From: a methanogenic archaeon mixed culture ISO4-G1
GTDB lineage: Archaea; Thermoplasmatota; Thermoplasmata; Methanomassiliicoccales; Methanomethylophilaceae
Direction of reading: 5' to 3'
Length of the DNA: 64,000 bases
NCBI GenBank assembly: GCA_001563305.1
Contig: CP013703.1
Coordinates: forward strand, 806,001-870,000
The notes under the pieces are model-generated. The model had not been told where the DNA came from, ran no database searches, and worked only from the letters and a program-made list of their open reading frames with translations. The translations under genes and the position numbers were made by a program. Below, one piece after another: positions 4,517-58,474 of the stretch (the stretch's first letter is position 1; every line of letters starts with the position of its first letter).

Positions 4517-4596
4517 GAGGGTGAATCGGCGGGTCGGTTTAAAGGGTTGATGTGTGCCGACCGCGCACATTTATGTCCGTTCTGCTATACCCTTTC

Positions 4597-7236
4597 ATGA
4601 AGTGCGCCAAGAGCATCGATGAGCTTTATGAGGAGGTCTCAGAATTCGATCTCGTCATCACCGTTGATGCGGCTCTGGCCACAGCCCTCAACGCGCGTAT
4701 CGACCGCCCTATCATAGGGTCATTCGCACTCACGCCCAGGCAGATCGCTTCCAAGATAGCATCGCGTGTCATGGACAAGGCCCCCTACAATGAACTTAGG
4801 GTCATCTCATCCGTCTCTGACGAGACCGGGCTGAGCTTCAAGTACGTCCACAGCGAGGTCGAGAACATCCGCGAGATCAGGAAGTACACGATAGACGTCA
4901 GGAAGCACCTTCATTCCGAGGCATCTAAGGCCGTATACGACTCATATGAGAAGATCCCAACGCTGGACAGACTGATGGGCGCCTTCATCCCCGAGGATGA
5001 CCAGTTCTTCAAGGGGAACAAGATCGCGGTCATCGAGGAGGACCTGTTCAACGATCTGGACAAGCATTTCAACCCTATCGGACACGAATCGATCTCTATC
5101 TTCAAGAAGGGCGATTACGAGATCCCCCGCATCTACGAGATCGGTAACGATAGGCAGCTGGCCGAGAACGCCGTAGACATGATATCTGTCGACAACTGCA
5201 CCGATTTCGCCATAGTCCTCAACACATCAAGCCCTATCGCGGATGCCGTGCGCACCGCACTGTACAGGAAGAGGATACCGTTCATCAACTCATTGACCGT
5301 GAGGGACCTCTCTCAGATCAGGGATTACCTTCAGTTCATAACACTGGCCCTTGATTTCGACACCATCCGCGTGAAGCATGTCAAAGAGCTGTTCTCGAAC
5401 TACAACGGGTTCTTCAGGAAGGGCAGGGAGGAGTTTCTCCTCAGCAAGCAGACCGAGAATGACATGCCTGACAGGTGCATGGAACTGTGGAACGTCATGA
5501 AGGACATCCGTAAGATGACCTTCGGGGAGGTCTGCGATGCAATCTGCGACAGGAACGCACGTATCCAGGTCGGGATGACCATCGACGACCTCAAGGTCAG
5601 GGACCAGGTCATAACGAGATACCTCCTGGGCGAGGTCAAGTACGCAGTGGACAACGTCAATGAGCTCAGGCACAGCGAGGAGATTCCCGATGACGAGCGC
5701 AACGGGGTGCTGCTGGTCGACTGCAACAACTCAGTCTACATAGACCGGCCGGTCGTGATCTATCTCGGTCTGGAGCAGGATTGGAACATGCCCGTGGTCG
5801 GCAAACCGTATCTGGATGCCGAGGAGGAGACCGATAAGAACGTGATGAGGCTGACCGCACTTCTCCAGCAGGGGTCGGTCCGCTACTATTTCGTCAACTC
5901 GACCAAAGGCGGGAAACCTGCAAAGCCCAATACACTGTTCAGCCAGATCTACCACAGGCCGATAAAATCGTTCAGGGATATCTGCGACGACATCGTCAAG
6001 GGGCGCTGGCATGAGGAATCCGGACCCATCTCGGTGGAGAAGGAGTCAATAACGGAATTGGATCCAAAGGCATTCACGCGCCCGTTCTCGAAATCATCCT
6101 TTGACGCGTACTACTCCTGCCCCCGCAAGTATCTGTATTCCTCACTGCTCAACACACCTGACGAGAAGAGCACGGAGCTCGGGAACCTCGTTCACGCGTT
6201 CGCGGAGTTCTACGTCTGCTATCCAGAGATTGTGGAGGAGAAGGGGATAGACCATTTCGTCGACCTCGTTTCCGAAAGGTATTCCGGTCTTTCCTCCCCG
6301 CTCTTGGAGACCCTGGACAGAGATCACATAAGATGCGCCATGATCTCCACGGTGGAGTATCTTAAGGCCATAGGTGTGCACGATGTCCCTCTGGACAAGC
6401 CCATCTCCAAAAACAATCCGAATCAGTTCTTCGTTGCCTTCGGGAAGACAATGGGCAGTTCCGTCTGTGAGAACGATATCTATTCGAAGACATACCCGAT
6501 TCACGGCAAGATGGACCTGTACTGGAACGGCGTCATTACGGATTACAAGACAGGTAAGCCCTCCAGCGCCTCCAGTATCGCCGAGGCCATGACATTCGAT
6601 TCCAACGCACAGTATCCTGAGTTCCAGCCGCCGATATACCTGCAGATAATTTCCGAACTGGGCGGTTCCAGGAACAGGTTCAACCAGTTCTATGCCATGG
6701 ACAACGACGTTCCCACGGAGGAAGGCAAGGCCCCTGTGATGTCCAACGTCCGCGTCATGCAACTGGACGACCGTGACCTGAAAGGGTGTCTGAACGACAA
6801 CCCCGCTCTGATTTCTTCTTTGGAGACCGATCTCAGCAAGAATCTGCGCGAACATGCGGCAGAGATAGTCCAGATTATTCACGACATCGGTCAGGATGAC
6901 CCAAGCACATGGGACAAGGACGGGGCCCTCAAGGTTGCAGTCCTATCCTGCGCCGGTCTCAACGACAATGCCACCAACAGGAAGACGGTCGAGGCAGGAT
7001 TGCGCAAGATCGCCGGATATCTAAGATACGACCTGGTCACCGCCGGAGCTGTTATCACAGTACCAAAAACCACCATGGAGCAGACGATGTCGAGGATCAC
7101 GGAGGCATATGAGGAGATGGTCTCCCGCAGGACCACGGATTATCCGCCCGAGCCCAGAGGAGACTGCAAGAGATGCCGTTTCCTCTCCGTCTGCACCAGG
7201 GACCAACTGAATCTGGGAGGTCAGACCGATGAGTGA
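4597..7236 (+). CDS. addB: AddB-like nuclease subunit with Fe-S cluster
   Basis: An 879-residue protein. The N-terminal ~500 residues look like a decayed UvrD-type helicase without a Walker A. The C-terminal part is a PD-(D/E)XK nuclease: GKMDLYW followed by GVITDYKTGK supplies the Asp and the DYK lysine. One cysteine before the nuclease (YYSCPRKY) plus three at the end (CKRCRFLSVC) are the four ligands of the Fe-S cluster of AddB and Cas4. AddAB resects double-strand breaks for recombination and degrades linear DNA. A TTTATG box near 4568 favours a leaderless ATG at 4597; in-frame upstream starts exist at 4552 and 4573. It overlaps addA by 8 nt. Confidence 0.82.
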   Translation: MKCAKSIDELYEEVSEFDLVITVDAALATALNARIDRPIIGSFALTPRQIASKIASRVMDKAPYNELRVISSVSDETGLSFKYVHSEVENIREIRKYTIDVRKHLHSEASKAVYDSYEKIPTLDRLMGAFIPEDDQFFKGNKIAVIEEDLFNDLDKHFNPIGHESISIFKKGDYEIPRIYEIGNDRQLAENAVDMISVDNCTDFAIVLNTSSPIADAVRTALYRKRIPFINSLTVRDLSQIRDYLQFITLALDFDTIRVKHVKELFSNYNGFFRKGREEFLLSKQTENDMPDRCMELWNVMKDIRKMTFGEVCDAICDRNARIQVGMTIDDLKVRDQVITRYLLGEVKYAVDNVNELRHSEEIPDDERNGVLLVDCNNSVYIDRPVVIYLGLEQDWNMPVVGKPYLDAEEETDKNVMRLTALLQQGSVRYYFVNSTKGGKPAKPNTLFSQIYHRPIKSFRDICDDIVKGRWHEESGPISVEKESITELDPKAFTRPFSKSSFDAYYSCPRKYLYSSLLNTPDEKSTELGNLVHAFAEFYVCYPEIVEEKGIDHFVDLVSERYSGLSSPLLETLDRDHIRCAMISTVEYLKAIGVHDVPLDKPISKNNPNQFFVAFGKTMGSSVCENDIYSKTYPIHGKMDLYWNGVITDYKTGKPSSASSIAEAMTFDSNAQYPEFQPPIYLQIISELGGSRNRFNQFYAMDNDVPTEEGKAPVMSNVRVMQLDDRDLKGCLNDNPALISSLETDLSKNLREHAAEIVQIIHDIGQDDPSTWDKDGALKVAVLSCAGLNDNATNRKTVEAGLRKIAGYLRYDLVTAGAVITVPKTTMEQTMSRITEAYEEMVSRRTTDYPPEPRGDCKRCRFLSVCTRDQLNLGGQTDE

Positions 7237-10117
7237 ACTCGATGAGTGCCAGAAGGTCATCCGCGATACGCTAGAGGGGATGATCGTCGTTGACGCCGGA
7301 CCCGGTACCGGCAAGACCCACACCATCGTGCAGCGTTACATCAAGCTGATATCCAAGCCCGACGTCAGTCCAAAGGATGTCCTGCTGCTCACATTCACCA
7401 ACAATGCGGCGGAGGAGATGGAGGACCGTATCAAGGTCCAGATGGCGGCGGCCGGCCTCGAGAGGGATTCGAAGTTCATCCAGGCCAGCACATTCGATGC
7501 TTTCTGCCTCTCCATTGTACTGGATTCACCTGACATGGTCAGTTCGTTCTTCGGGTTCAAGGAGACTCTCACAAGATCCGCCACCCTCGTAGAGAACCGT
7601 TCGTTGAACGTAGATTACTTCAGTCGCTTCCTGGACGGGTTCCTCATACTCAAGGGAGAGGATTACGGCGATGTAGCCACGATAGCCAGCGAGAATCCCG
7701 TCTCGGTCCTGGACCTTATCGAGAACCTGATGTCCCGCGGTCTGATCCCTCTAAAGAACGGATGGTTCGGCAACGGTGCCGACAGGATCCTCAAGGGTGA
7801 CCTGGATAAGCTCAGGGATCTCGTGAACGAGAAGAACCAGGCCGTTGGTGGAAAGCGCTGCGAGATACTTTGTATCCTCTCTGACAAGAAGTATGACGGT
7901 TCCTTCGGTATGCCAGACACTTCCAGGATAACCTTGACCAAACAGGAGCTGGAATCCATCGTGGATCCGGACAGGGAGGAATTGTTCCGCTTCATCCACG
8001 ACGTCTACTACGATTACATCAGGCAGTGCATCTCGGATAACCGCCTGACCTTCGGCATCAACGCGATGCTGGCCTTCACCCTTTTGTACAAGCACAGGTC
8101 CGTCAGGGAGAGGAACTCCTTCCGCTATCTGATGGTGGACGAGTTCCAGGATACCAACGCCAATCAGCTGATGATCTGCCTCATGCTCCTGAAGGAGCCC
8201 AATCTCTGCGTCGTAGGGGATTGGAAACAGGGGATCTACGGATTCAGATACGTCTCCACGGACAACATAGTCCATTTCGAGGAGAAAGTCGTGGAGTGCC
8301 GCAGGTTCCTCAACGACGACGTGGTAAGGATCCCGTTCCACATCCCGGAGGTCATACAGCTGCCTCTGACCGTCAGCCACAGGTCATCCAAGGCCGTCCT
8401 GGACAAGGCATTCCAGGCGATCTGCGTAAGAGGGACCAAGGATGACGACCCACAATAGGGGGCACGCAAGAAGGACGTCATCCTTCTGGAGCAGGGCCGT
8501 GACGACATCGGCGAAGATACTGCCGTGCGCTTCGTCATGTCCGAATCCAAGGAGAAGGAGGTCGATGACGTCGTATCTGCCATCATCGATTACGTCAAGT
8601 CGGGCAACTACGTCGTCCATGACGACAACGGGCCCAGGCCGCTGGGTTACGGGGACATAGCAGTCATCAGCCGCAATACGAGCTTCTGCCGCCTCATCCG
8701 CGATGCCTGCGAACGCAGGAACATCCCGGCATATCTCCAGGGGGATGTGCAGATAATGTGCACCCGCGAAGGGAAGCTGGCACTTGCCTGGTTGAGATAT
8801 GTCAACAACAACCGCGATCCGTGGGCCGTGGTGCCCATCATGGCGGATATGGGCTACTCCCCGGTGGAGATCGAAGCGGTAGTCTCCAGCAAGTTCGCCA
8901 AGGTTCCGGAGGCCATAGTCGGACAGCGCAAGAGCCTCTACCGCAGGAGACGCAGGATAACCGATCTGCTGGCAACGATATTCCAGTTCTACGGTCTGGA
9001 CAACGACATAACGCAGGCTATCATCAACACCATGTCTTCCATACACCGCGGTACCCTCCTGACGATCTCCGATGTCATCAGGATAATGGAGGACGACATC
9101 GAGAACCAGACCGCCTATCCGGTCGAGAACTTCATCGATTCCAAGGCCGTCACCATAATGACCATGCACAAGTCCAAGGGTCTCGAGTTCCCCGCCGTCA
9201 TATGCCCGTTCATCGACCAGAGGGTCATGCCCAGCATGAGAGGCGACTCCGACGTATTCTGCTACTCCGAGGATGCCGGTATCCGCTGCAGGCGGGAGAT
9301 CGCCCGTTACGAGGGCTATTCGAAGATCACCGACGATTGGCGTACCAAGCTCATCCTCGGACTCATCCCCAGGGATTATAGCGAGGAGAGGCGTCTGATG
9401 TTCGTCGCCCTATCCAGGGCCAAACAGTACATCACCGTGATCTCCGGCCCCAAACCGTCCTTTTTCATGACCGACCTCTCCGACGGTGAAACGACGATCC
9501 CGAAGATCGATCTGAGCTCCGACAGGAAGACGAAGGACAACATAGCCAGACCGGTCCTTCCCGGATACTCCAGGAGAATATCCAAGATGGGCGTCCATGA
9601 GATATTGGACTTCACTGACGATGACGGGAAGGGATGCCCTGAGGGCTGCGACGAGATATCAGGAAAAGGCATGGAATACGGTACCGAGGTCCACCGTATC
9701 GCCGAGGACATGTGCAACGGCAAGAAGCCTGACAAGGACTATCCTGAGGTGGAGCAGATACGCAAGGTCCTGGATTCCGTTAAGGATGCTGACATGCTCT
9801 GTCCGGAGATCGAATGCGGTCTTCCCGTTGACGGCACCGAGGTCGTCCTCAGAGGTGTCATCGACCTGCTGGCCCTTTATCCGGATCGTATAGAGATCCA
9901 CGACTACAAGACCGATGTATCGGACCGTTTCGAACCCGAGTATATAATCCAGCTTTCTGTCTATGCCCACGCGGCCATGCGCTTCTACGGACTACCCGTC
10001 AGATGCTTCATAGATTACGTCTCCATGGGCTATTCCAAACCGATCGAAGTGGTAGAAATGGATGAAATCGCCCTAAGAACGCGCGCAAAACTAACTGACA
10101 TTTTTATAGAAAGGTGA
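7229..10117 (+). CDS. addA: AddA-like helicase-nuclease with in-frame UAG
   Basis: A UvrD/AddA helicase read as one 963-codon frame with a TAG at 8456-8458 (codon 410). Before it come Walker A AGPGTGKTHT (Lys29), motif Ia TFTNNAAEEM, Walker B MVDEFQDTNANQ, motif III VGDWKQGIYGFR and motif IV SHRSSKAVLD. After it come motif V TMHKSKGLEFPAV, motif VI RRLMFVALSRAKQ and a C-terminal PD-(D/E)XK nuclease (GVIDLLALYP...IHDYKTD). Both halves are in the same frame, no base is missing, and each lacks essential helicase motifs, so a single protein with UAG read as an amino acid (probably pyrrolysine) is the best reading. The start has a Shine-Dalgarno GGGAGGTCA at 7215-7223. Alternatives are a nonsense pseudogene or two polypeptides. 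Final stop is TGA. Confidence 0.83.
10102..10109 (+). promoter_or_regulatory. TATA box for the P-type ATPase gene
   Basis: TTTTTATA lies 24-28 nt before the ATG at 10130, overlapping the end of addA. The spacing predicts a leaderless or nearly leaderless transcript. Confidence 0.5.
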
Positions 10118-16306: not shown

Positions 16307-16993
16307 ATGAACTACGAACGGATCAAGACGGGAACATTCTTGGAAAGGCCTAACCGTTTCATAGCATACTGCGAGATCGACGGCAAGGTGGAGAAGTGCC
16401 ACGTCAAGAACACTGGAAGATGCAAGGAGATACTCGTACCCGGTGCCAAGGTGGTGCTGTACGATTCCGATAACCCCTCCAGGAAGACACGTTACGACCT
16501 CATAGCCGTCTACAAGGGCCAGATGCTCATCAACATAGATTCTCAGGCCCCCAATGCCGCTTTCAAGGAGTTCATCCCGGTGTCGGGACTTTTCAAAAAC
16601 CCAGTGATCCATCCGGAATACACCCATGGCGATTCACGCTTCGATTTCTACATCGAGGACGGTGTCAGGAAGGTCTTCGCGGAGGTGAAGGGCGTGACCC
16701 TGGAGAGGAACGGGCGCTGCCTTTTCCCCGATGCACCGACAGAAAGGGGCCTGAAACACCTCAAGGGATTGCTGGATGCGAGGAAAGAGGGTTACGAGTC
16801 ATAGATCGTGTTCATAATCCAGATGAAACCGGTGGAATATTTCACTCCCAACCGTGAGATGGATCCGGCTTTCTCTGATGAGCTGAGGAACATCAGGGAT
16901 CAGGGCGTATGCCTGCTGGCCTACGATTGTATCGTGGAACCTGATTCGATGGTGGTGGACGCTTCCGTGGAATGCCGTCTTTACATCATCTGA
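16307..16993 (+). CDS. sfsA: SfsA-family protein with in-frame UAG
   Basis: The frame is 229 codons with a TAG at 16802-16804 (codon 166). Before it: the SfsA N-terminal OB-like domain (FLERPNRFIAYCEIDG, VKNTGRCKEIL) and the nuclease-like core (DFYIED, FAEVKGVTLE, FPDAPTERGLKHLKGL). After it: the standard SfsA C-terminus FIIQMKPVEYFTPNREMDP and GVCLLAYDC. Typical SfsA proteins are about 230 residues, so only read-through gives full length. SfsA was named for sugar fermentation stimulation in E. coli; the fold suggests a nucleic-acid-binding or nuclease role. Start chosen for the Shine-Dalgarno GGAGGG at 16296-16301. Final stop TGA overlaps the convergent gene by 8 nt. Confidence 0.88.
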
Positions 16994-19797: not shown

Positions 19798-20541
19798 TTA
19801 CTGCGCCTCTGCGGGGATCAAAGTGCCCCCGATGGAACCGTAATGCGATCCCAGCACCTGCTGCTTGTATGCGTTCCCGTATTTCGAGAAAGAAGTCTTG
19901 TAGAGCCTGTTGGCGTTGAGGACTTCGTTCAGCCACGACGGATATCCGTAAAGAGTCTTGATCTCCATCAGCCTATAGCCGTCCGGGAGGACGCTCTACC
20001 CATCGACGTCGGAATCGAGTCTAACGTCCTCACGTCTGGCGATGATGTCCGAATCTATGGTTATCCGGAGATCCGTTCCGTCCAGGGACCTGTATGAGTC
20101 CCTTTCGTAACAGACCAGCATCGACGGGGATATCGTAGGGTAGCGCTGCTTGAGGAAGTCTATCTCCCTTCCAATCTGGCAATCGGGGAATGAATAATCC
20201 TCTTGGGAGAACCAGTCCACAGCCTCATGCAGGGGCATGGTGAGGCGTCTCTTGTACACAACCGAGTCGTATTTCTTCTTCAGCTCTACGAATATTTTCG
20301 AGCCGCCATCCGGTTCGCCGTAGCTTCTGAAGCGGAGCTTCTCCTTGTACAGCGGCTTCTCTATGGAACGGCGCACAAGCAGATCGTCATCGGTGTCCAG
20401 ATAGACGTTCCTGATGGAGCTGTGGGCATAGGTGTCCGGCACCATATGCATGTTCAATACTGGAAGTACTTGGCCGAAAGCCTCTTCGTCCAGGAGGTAT
20501 TTCAGCTCGTACCTTTTGAATACGGTCTTGACATCCATCAT
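19798..20541 (-). CDS. VTC-domain polyphosphate polymerase-like protein with in-frame UAG
   Basis: A 248-codon frame with a TAG at 19996-19998 (codon 182). The first part is the VTC catalytic tunnel: FKRYELKYLL, the basic strands KEKLRFRSYG, FVELKKKYDSVVYKRR and the LVCYERDSYRS strand with DLRITIDSD. After the TAG the frame gives YRLMEIKTLYGYPSWL and TSFSKYGNAYKQQV, the expected last VTC strand (E-K) and helix, then TAA at 19798. VTC enzymes polymerise ATP phosphate into polyphosphate in yeast; bacterial homologues sit with DUF4956 and DUF4353 or CotH genes. The start ATG is just past the DUF4956 stop. Reading UAG as an amino acid restores the full domain. Confidence 0.84.
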
Positions 20542-21390: not shown

Positions 21391-22044
21391 TCACAGATCC
21401 AACTGTATGTGCAGTAGAAGGGCTGGTGCACTAACGGGTTTAGAATAGGACGGTAGTTGTATGAAGAGGTCCAGAGGAATGGCATCCTCGGGAACATCCT
21501 GCTCGGTCTCCTCGACGTATACAGGGTCCGAATCGGATACCTCCTCATCGGTACTGATTCCGCTGGCACGAGTATCGATCGCACTCACGCAGTTAATTGT
21601 GCGGAGGGCGGAAAGATAATCCGACAGCTTTTTGGACAGTATCTATGCGACATCCTCCATTTCCATCTCTGCCGCATAATCGATGACGTCCTGGACGAAT
21701 CCGGGGTCGTAATTGGATATGTCATCCTCGATCATGACGGGTATCATACGATCCATCTCTTCGGGAGTTGCATCGTGGTTGTAGCGTGGAGGCAGCGGTT
21801 CTGGTCCTGGTCCGAAGCGGTCCATCGGCGGTACCATGCGTTCGGTCCTGAACATATCATCGGGACCGTGCATCGGAGGAGCCGGCGCATTGGGCGCATG
21901 CACGGATGGCCCACCCATGTCTGGGATGCGAGGATCCATCGGTTCAGCTGAAAGCTCATCGTCATCGCTGAAATACGCCCCCGCAACGATTACGGCGGCG
22001 ATCGAGGCCAGAACGGCCATTGCCATGACGGTCTTTCTCAGCAT
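21391..22044 (-). CDS. Exported Pro/Asp-rich protein with in-frame UAG
   Basis: A 218-codon frame with a TAG at 21643-21645 (codon 134). The N-terminus TVMAMAVLASIAAVIVAGAYF is a signal peptide or anchor, followed by a Pro/Met-rich stretch (APNAPAPPMHGPDD) and an acidic helix. After the TAG 83 more codons continue to TGA: a basic amphipathic helix (ILSKKLSDYLSALRT) and an acidic segment (TDEEVSDSDPVYVEETEQD). I recognise no family. The second part cannot be confirmed by homology here; its acidic, low-complexity character matches the first part. A TATA-like ATTTTAATAC at 22068-22077 precedes the start. The first 133 codons are likely real; the read-through extension is less sure. Confidence 0.65.
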
Positions 22045-57436: not shown

Positions 57437-58474
57437 ATGCGCGTTCTGGGAGAGGATTTCTCATCAGGGGATGTGAGGCTCCAGGTCGAATCCGAGGAAG
57501 ACCTCTGGCATCTCTTCAATGTGATAGAGGCAGGCGACCTTGTCACAGCATCCACGACCAGACGCGAGGAGAAGTCGGCAGACAAGATCCGTGCCGAGAA
57601 GATGGAGAAGAAGAGGATGACGCTGGGCATCCGCATCGAGAAGATCGACTTCTCCGACGAGGACCTGAGGCTGAAGCTCCTGGGAACCATCGAGACCGGA
57701 CCACAGGACATAGGACAGCACCATACACTGATATTCGAGAACGGTGACAACCTCACACTCCACAAGGACAGATGGAGGACCACACAGATCGAGCGTATAA
57801 GGAGAGCCGTCACCGATTCCAAGAAACCGCGTATTATATTCGTGTCCCTGGACCAGGACGAGGCGACGATAGCCGTTCTGCGGCAGTTCGGGCTGAAGGA
57901 GATTACCACCATACGCTCGGGCAGGTCCGGGAAACAGTACGAGGAGAAACCTTCGGTGGACGGCTACCACGGGGAGATCTATTCGAAGCTCAAGCTCATC
58001 CTGGAGCCCAATATGCCGATAGTCCTTCTGGGGCCCGGGTTCGAGAAGGAGGACCTGGCAGAGGACCTGAAGAAGATAGACCCCAATGCGTTCGGGAAGC
58101 TCTACGTGTACCACACTGGACAATCCGGGATGGTCGGCATCAACGAACTGATGAAGGCCGGCATGGGGGCGGACATCCTCAGGGAATCGTCCGTCGGAGC
58201 GGAAATCGAGGCTGTGGAGCAGCTCATGACGGAGATAGCGAAGGACGGACTGGGCACATACGGTCCGGAGGAGGTCCGCAACGCCGCCATGTCCGGGGCG
58301 GTGGATAAACTGCTCATCCTGGACTCCAAGGTCCGCGAGAACGACCTGGACGACATCGTGCGCGCGGTCGAATCCCAGAAAGGCTCGATCATCATAGTGT
58401 CGAGTCAGCACGACGGCGGCAAGGAGTTGCAGGCCCTGGGCGGTCTCGGAGCACTCCTCCGCTACAAGATGTGA
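57437..58474 (+). CDS. pelA: mRNA surveillance protein Pelota
   Basis: A 345-residue archaeal Pelota. The N-terminal Sm-like domain contains ESEEDLWHLFNVIEAGDLV and RREEKSADKIRAEK; the central and C-terminal eRF1-like domains follow (YEEKPSVDGYHGEIYSKLKL, ILDSKVRENDLDDIVRAVES, GGLGALLRYKM). As expected it lacks the GGQ of release factors. It rescues stalled ribosomes with aEF1A. This matters here because UAG appears to be read as sense. Ends in TGA. Confidence 0.95.
   Translation: MRVLGEDFSSGDVRLQVESEEDLWHLFNVIEAGDLVTASTTRREEKSADKIRAEKMEKKRMTLGIRIEKIDFSDEDLRLKLLGTIETGPQDIGQHHTLIFENGDNLTLHKDRWRTTQIERIRRAVTDSKKPRIIFVSLDQDEATIAVLRQFGLKEITTIRSGRSGKQYEEKPSVDGYHGEIYSKLKLILEPNMPIVLLGPGFEKEDLAEDLKKIDPNAFGKLYVYHTGQSGMVGINELMKAGMGADILRESSVGAEIEAVEQLMTEIAKDGLGTYGPEEVRNAAMSGAVDKLLILDSKVRENDLDDIVRAVESQKGSIIIVSSQHDGGKELQALGGLGALLRYKM

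Follow-up and report, generated by a model that had tools for sequence, protein, structure and literature searches.

The genome of ISO4-G1, a sheep-rumen member of the Methanomassiliicoccales (PMC4824259), contains a helicase gene interrupted by an in-frame TAG, and the question is whether the gene ends at that codon or is translated through it. The window analyzed here is a stretch of 64,000 nucleotides of that genome, and its features are collected in the table. The reading frame runs from an ATG at 7229 to a TGA at 10117. It encodes 962 residues if the TAG, which is codon 410, is read. Taken as a stop, the TAG at 8456–8458 would leave a product of 409 amino acids from the same ATG.

Features of the window discussed in the text, in window coordinates
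Feature	Coordinates	Strand	Evidence
AddB-like partner, C-terminal PDDEXK nuclease and Cys cluster	4573..7236	+	PF12705 5.2e-13; stop overlaps AddA start (7229)
962-aa AddA-like helicase of the UvrD family with a C-terminal PDDEXK nuclease; a single TAG in frame	7229..10117	+	Pfam, relatives, fold matches
In-frame TAG, codon 410, pyrrolysine inferred	8456..8458	+	TAG column in L009, L010, L014; tRNA-Pyl and pylS/B/C/D in genome
GTG, possible restart in the sequence-only reading; most likely an internal Val codon	8525..8527	+	Start not conserved
SfsA protein, in-frame TAG 16802-16804 (codon 166)	16307..16993	+	PF03749 spans TAG
VTC-domain protein (polyphosphate polymerase-like), in-frame TAG 19996-19998 (codon 182)	19798..20541	-	PF09359 spans TAG
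Conserved unknown protein, in-frame TAG 21643-21645 (codon 134)	21391..22044	-	Homologues align across TAG

The protein resembles the AddA subunit of AddAB. Its best fold matches are the AddA chains 4cei_A and 4ceh_A of that complex (E 1.2e-33), and the nearest proteins by sequence are PcrA, UvrD, AddA and RecB. Motifs I–VI of the SF1 UvrD helicases and a C-terminal PDDEXK nuclease are found in one chain, as in bacterial AddA and RecB (AddAB PDB 4cei, 4ceh and 3u44; RecBCD). The top fold matches and an adjoining AddB-like gene are likewise in keeping with the bacterial systems. That AddB-like gene lies directly upstream, overlapping the start of AddA, and encodes both a nuclease domain and a Cys cluster, the latter with the motif CKRCRFLSVC as read in the sequence. 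The longest possible start of this ORF is at 4552, and 4573 is used here. The six relatives that were checked (L009–L014) likewise have an AddB-like gene upstream of AddA, and another is beside a paralogue in ISO4-G1 itself (L038). The window protein differs from bacterial AddA and RecB in being shorter, only about 15% identical, and far under the curated AddA cut-offs, with 135.7 bits against the 707.65 required by TIGR02785 and 94 against the 860.75 of TIGR02784. It belongs instead to a separate archaeal branch, together with relatives from haloarchaea that are 29–33% identical and have no stop at the place of the TAG. Membership of the curated AddA family therefore failed by score, and we call the protein AddA-like rather than AddA; the shorter name, where we use it, fits in the sense of an AddA/RecB-like protein beside an AddB-like partner. 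Matches from PADLOC (GajB and others) were rejected as generic UvrD-helicase similarity. The product would carry out AddAB-type processing of DNA ends together with the adjoining AddB-like subunit.

The TAG divides the recognizable parts of this protein. Residues 1–409 contain helicase motifs I (GPGTGKT), II (DEFQD), III (GDWKQ) and IV (HRSS), and residues 411–962 contain motif V (TMHKSKGLEF), motif VI (EERRLMFVALSRA) and the nuclease motifs (GVIDLL...DYKTD...QLSVY). The Pfam matches split in the same way, with PF00580 only before the TAG and PF13361, PF13538 and the PDDEXK nuclease only after it. A sequence-only reading of the window had placed the TAG at codon 410 between motifs IV and V and had held that all the motifs occur together only in a 962-residue product; both statements are borne out by the extent of the frame, the motif positions and the Pfam split. 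Its further claim, that one frame is maintained on both sides of the TAG, also stands. Downstream of the TAG, 552 codons are open with a strong coding score (186), and relatives without the stop align to the frame over its full length. These observations, together with the recurrence of the TAG column in three other genomes, exclude a chance frame.

That recurrence emerged from the comparison with close relatives that the same reading had proposed as a check of codon 410. A search of 120 genomes of Methanomassiliicoccales for AddA returned long matches across most of the family. In the genus sample of 31 genomes, a near-full-length AddA is present in 27, and it contains a TAG in 4 of the 27, at the same alignment column every time. 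The four genes are the window's own (L008) and L009, L010 and L014, whose proteins are 58–64% identical to the window protein; L009 and L010 are closely related and count as one lineage. The other orthologues have a variety of sense residues in the column, namely E, V, S, R, A, P, G, H, Y, K, T and L. Homology is maintained in one frame on both sides of the UAG, as expected of a pyrrolysine-containing protein. On the AddA tree, L012, which has GTG (Val) in the column, falls among the TAG bearers, and the distribution of TAG needs two changes, which may be two gains or else a gain and a loss. A single clade of TAG bearers was not recovered, L012 being inside, and holding them as a clade gave a p-AU of 0.046. 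The column is in a variable linker about 25 residues after helicase motif IV, and in the AlphaFold model residue 410 belongs to a stretch of low confidence (382–431, pLDDT <50) between a helix and a strand. Since the site is in a variable linker, a pyrrolysine there is probably dispensable chemically, a residue that the protein tolerates and not one that takes part in catalysis.

The part of the gene beyond the TAG is under coding constraint in species that themselves carry the TAG. Between L009 and L010, the 550 codons after the TAG differ with pN of 0.023 and pS of 0.228, for a dN/dS of 0.09, which indicates that the sequence downstream of the stop continues to serve as protein. The same two genes are almost identical before the TAG, where pS is 0.026 as opposed to 0.228 after it. 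This contrast hints at a tract of recombination covering the first half of AddA.

One arrangement in which both parts would be used is a split gene, with translation stopping at UAG 410 and restarting at GTG 8525 or nearby, so that motifs I–IV would be on one subunit and motifs V–VI and the nuclease on another. The frame does offer an in-frame GTG at 8525 and an ATG at 8537, 23 and 27 codons past the TAG, and the sequence-only reading had named the GTG as a possible point of restart. However, neither is a conserved start. In L009 and L010, where the TAG is codon 411, the first ATG, GTG or TTG in frame after it comes 62 codons later, at codon 473, and L014 has no in-frame start at the place of GTG 8525. 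The 22 codons between the TAG and that GTG also align as protein with TAG-free relatives. The lack of a conserved start and the conservation of this stretch as protein make a split gene unlikely, and a cut between motifs IV and V, in domain 2A, would be expected to disrupt a folded domain. Altogether, we regard the split gene as highly improbable.

What would be needed to read the codon is present in the genome. Searches of ISO4-G1 found PylS (1.2e-78) and PylD (1.7e-57), and the genes for pyrrolysine are clustered at about 657–662 kb of the genome, where a tRNA-Pyl with a CUA anticodon is just upstream of pylS and is followed by pylB-, pylC- and pylD-like ORFs. The tRNA, its synthetase and the biosynthetic pathway are thus all encoded. 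A Pyl operon and 25 pyrrolysine-containing proteins, nine of them methyltransferases, have been reported for this organism (PMC4824259). PylD was matched in all 20 family genomes tested, in 19 of them over the cut-off. The genome also has an intact aRF1, so some termination at codon 410 is to be expected. Within the window, a protein at 57437–58474 (+) has eRF1 domains 1 and 3 and a weak, partial-length match to the aRF1 model; it is probably Pelota, the ribosome-rescue factor. No PYLIS-like structured element was found downstream of the AddA UAG, where the fold z-score is −0.82, and no Rfam match beyond chance was found around the TAG (8200–8800).

We consider it very probable that the locus encodes one intact AddA-like helicase/nuclease and that pyrrolysine is inserted at UAG 410 by ribosomes using the usual tRNA-Pyl(CUA)/PylS pair, which would compete with aRF1 without the help of a dedicated cis element. 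In this lineage, UAG would have turned into one more sense codon, little used but otherwise unremarkable, and a point mutation at a tolerated linker, for instance GAG to TAG, could then persist. Recoding within a single AddA frame was the central proposal of the sequence-only reading, and it is supported by the conservation, the selection downstream and the complete Pyl system. We infer the insertion and its efficiency at 410, and the identity of the inserted residue is taken from the tRNA alone.

If UAG is an ordinary codon in this lineage, it should not be confined to AddA. A simple gene call on the 64-kb window was used for stop counts, and the raw usage is 51 TGA, 7 TAA and 4 TAG. From triplet counts, 21% of stops would be expected to be TAG, and finding at most 1 in 59 has a p of about 1e-5. 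All four TAG-ended ORFs of the window continue past the TAG in homologues, and judged by these alignments, no recognized gene of the window terminates at TAG. In SfsA, the match to PF03749 is 3.3e-41 for the whole frame and 2.4e-11 for the portion past the TAG. For the VTC-domain protein, the corresponding values for PF09359 are 6.7e-39 and 2.1e-6, and relatives have H, N, K, R, S or M in the TAG column. The conserved unknown protein has no Pfam match; homologues at six loci in five congeners can be aligned through its TAG and have Glu or Asp in the column.

Further TAGs occur in AddA genes themselves. ISO4-G1 has a second AddB–AddA operon (L038, genome 711001–722000), in which AddA2, at 5111–8068 of the locus, is about 42% identical to the window AddA and contains two TAGs. 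These are codons 679 and 753 of the aligned AddA2, positions other than that of the window AddA TAG. The L014 AddA has a second in-frame TAG at codon 913, beside the QLSVY nuclease motif, in a column where almost all relatives have Ala and the others Gly. With four window ORFs behaving alike and two TAGs in AddA2, the predicted UAG recoding is not special to AddA.

The presence of TAGs in both AddA paralogues of ISO4-G1, and the retention of one at the same column in divergent species, might be taken to mean that UAG 410 is a selected switch tying AddAB levels to the supply of methylamine and pyrrolysine, the 409-residue product being a genuine second form. The TAG is, however, absent from most congeners and replaced by Val in L012, inside the group. 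The other TAGs are at unrelated places (679, 753 and 913), unrelated genes behave alike, and the RNA around codon 410 has neither structure nor an Rfam match beyond chance. The scattered positions of the TAGs do not support a regulatory role, and we give such a switch very little credence. The broader proposition, that both AddA-type helicases need UAG decoding and that double-strand-end processing is coupled to pyrrolysine supply as a selected control and not as a neutral consequence, we likewise consider improbable. A pseudogene or sequencing error, suggested by a lone in-frame stop in an otherwise intact gene, is very unlikely to the point of being hardly credible, because the TAG column is shared with three other genomes, with varied sense residues in the remaining relatives, and because of the purifying selection downstream, the three more TAG-spanning genes in the window and an assembly published from 454, MiSeq and Sanger reads (PMC4824259).

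Decoding of UAG 410 by tRNA-Pyl would be the same process by which UAG is read in the methylamine methyltransferases MtmB, MtbB and MttB of the same genomes, although in those enzymes pyrrolysine is catalytic and conserved, whereas the AddA position is variable. Kivenson et al., in Science in 2025, are said to have described archaea in which all TAG codons are read as pyrrolysine. The window is likewise without a recognized TAG terminator, its TAG-ended ORFs being interrupted by apparent internal sense codons, but the loci covered here are this single 64-kb window and a handful of others. Among non-methyltransferase proteins of the Methanomassiliicoccales, published work reports 16 putative pyrrolysine proteins in 'Ca. 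M. alvus', for example Cas1 and MtxX, in a genome where TAG makes up only 1.6% of stops (PMC4153887), and 46 amber-containing genes in ISO4-H5 (PMC5011839). Such proteins belong to the same order and have in common with the AddA case an in-frame TAG in an otherwise normal gene, TAG-free homologues, the Pyl machinery and rare TAG terminators. AddA is not among the proteins named in the accessible text of PMC4153887, PMC5011839 and PMC4824259, and its TAG column is shown here to recur in several species. It may already be among the 25 pyrrolysine proteins of ISO4-G1, whose list is not printed in PMC4824259. No pyrrolysine in AddA, and no pyrrolysine-containing AddAB, was found in the literature searched.

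The predicted reading of the AddA UAG almost certainly extends the known use of pyrrolysine in the Methanomassiliicoccales to a DNA-repair enzyme, with no new mechanism. Such an enzyme would join the methylamine enzymes as an evolutionarily supported carrier of pyrrolysine. It follows logically that full-length AddA would require UAG decoding, which would give the dependence of DNA repair on UAG decoding that the sequence-only reading had predicted. Loss of pyrrolysine synthesis should then harm a large number of proteins, the two AddAB-like complexes among them. Gene calls that stop at TAG split real genes in this lineage, as they do for four of the four TAG-ended ORFs in the window.

The TAG of SfsA is at a different kind of site from that of AddA. 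Almost all relatives have Tyr in its column, and one other genome (G098, locus L127) again has TAG. Pyrrolysine would there replace a conserved Tyr, and SfsA is for that reason a stronger candidate than AddA 410 for an effect on function.
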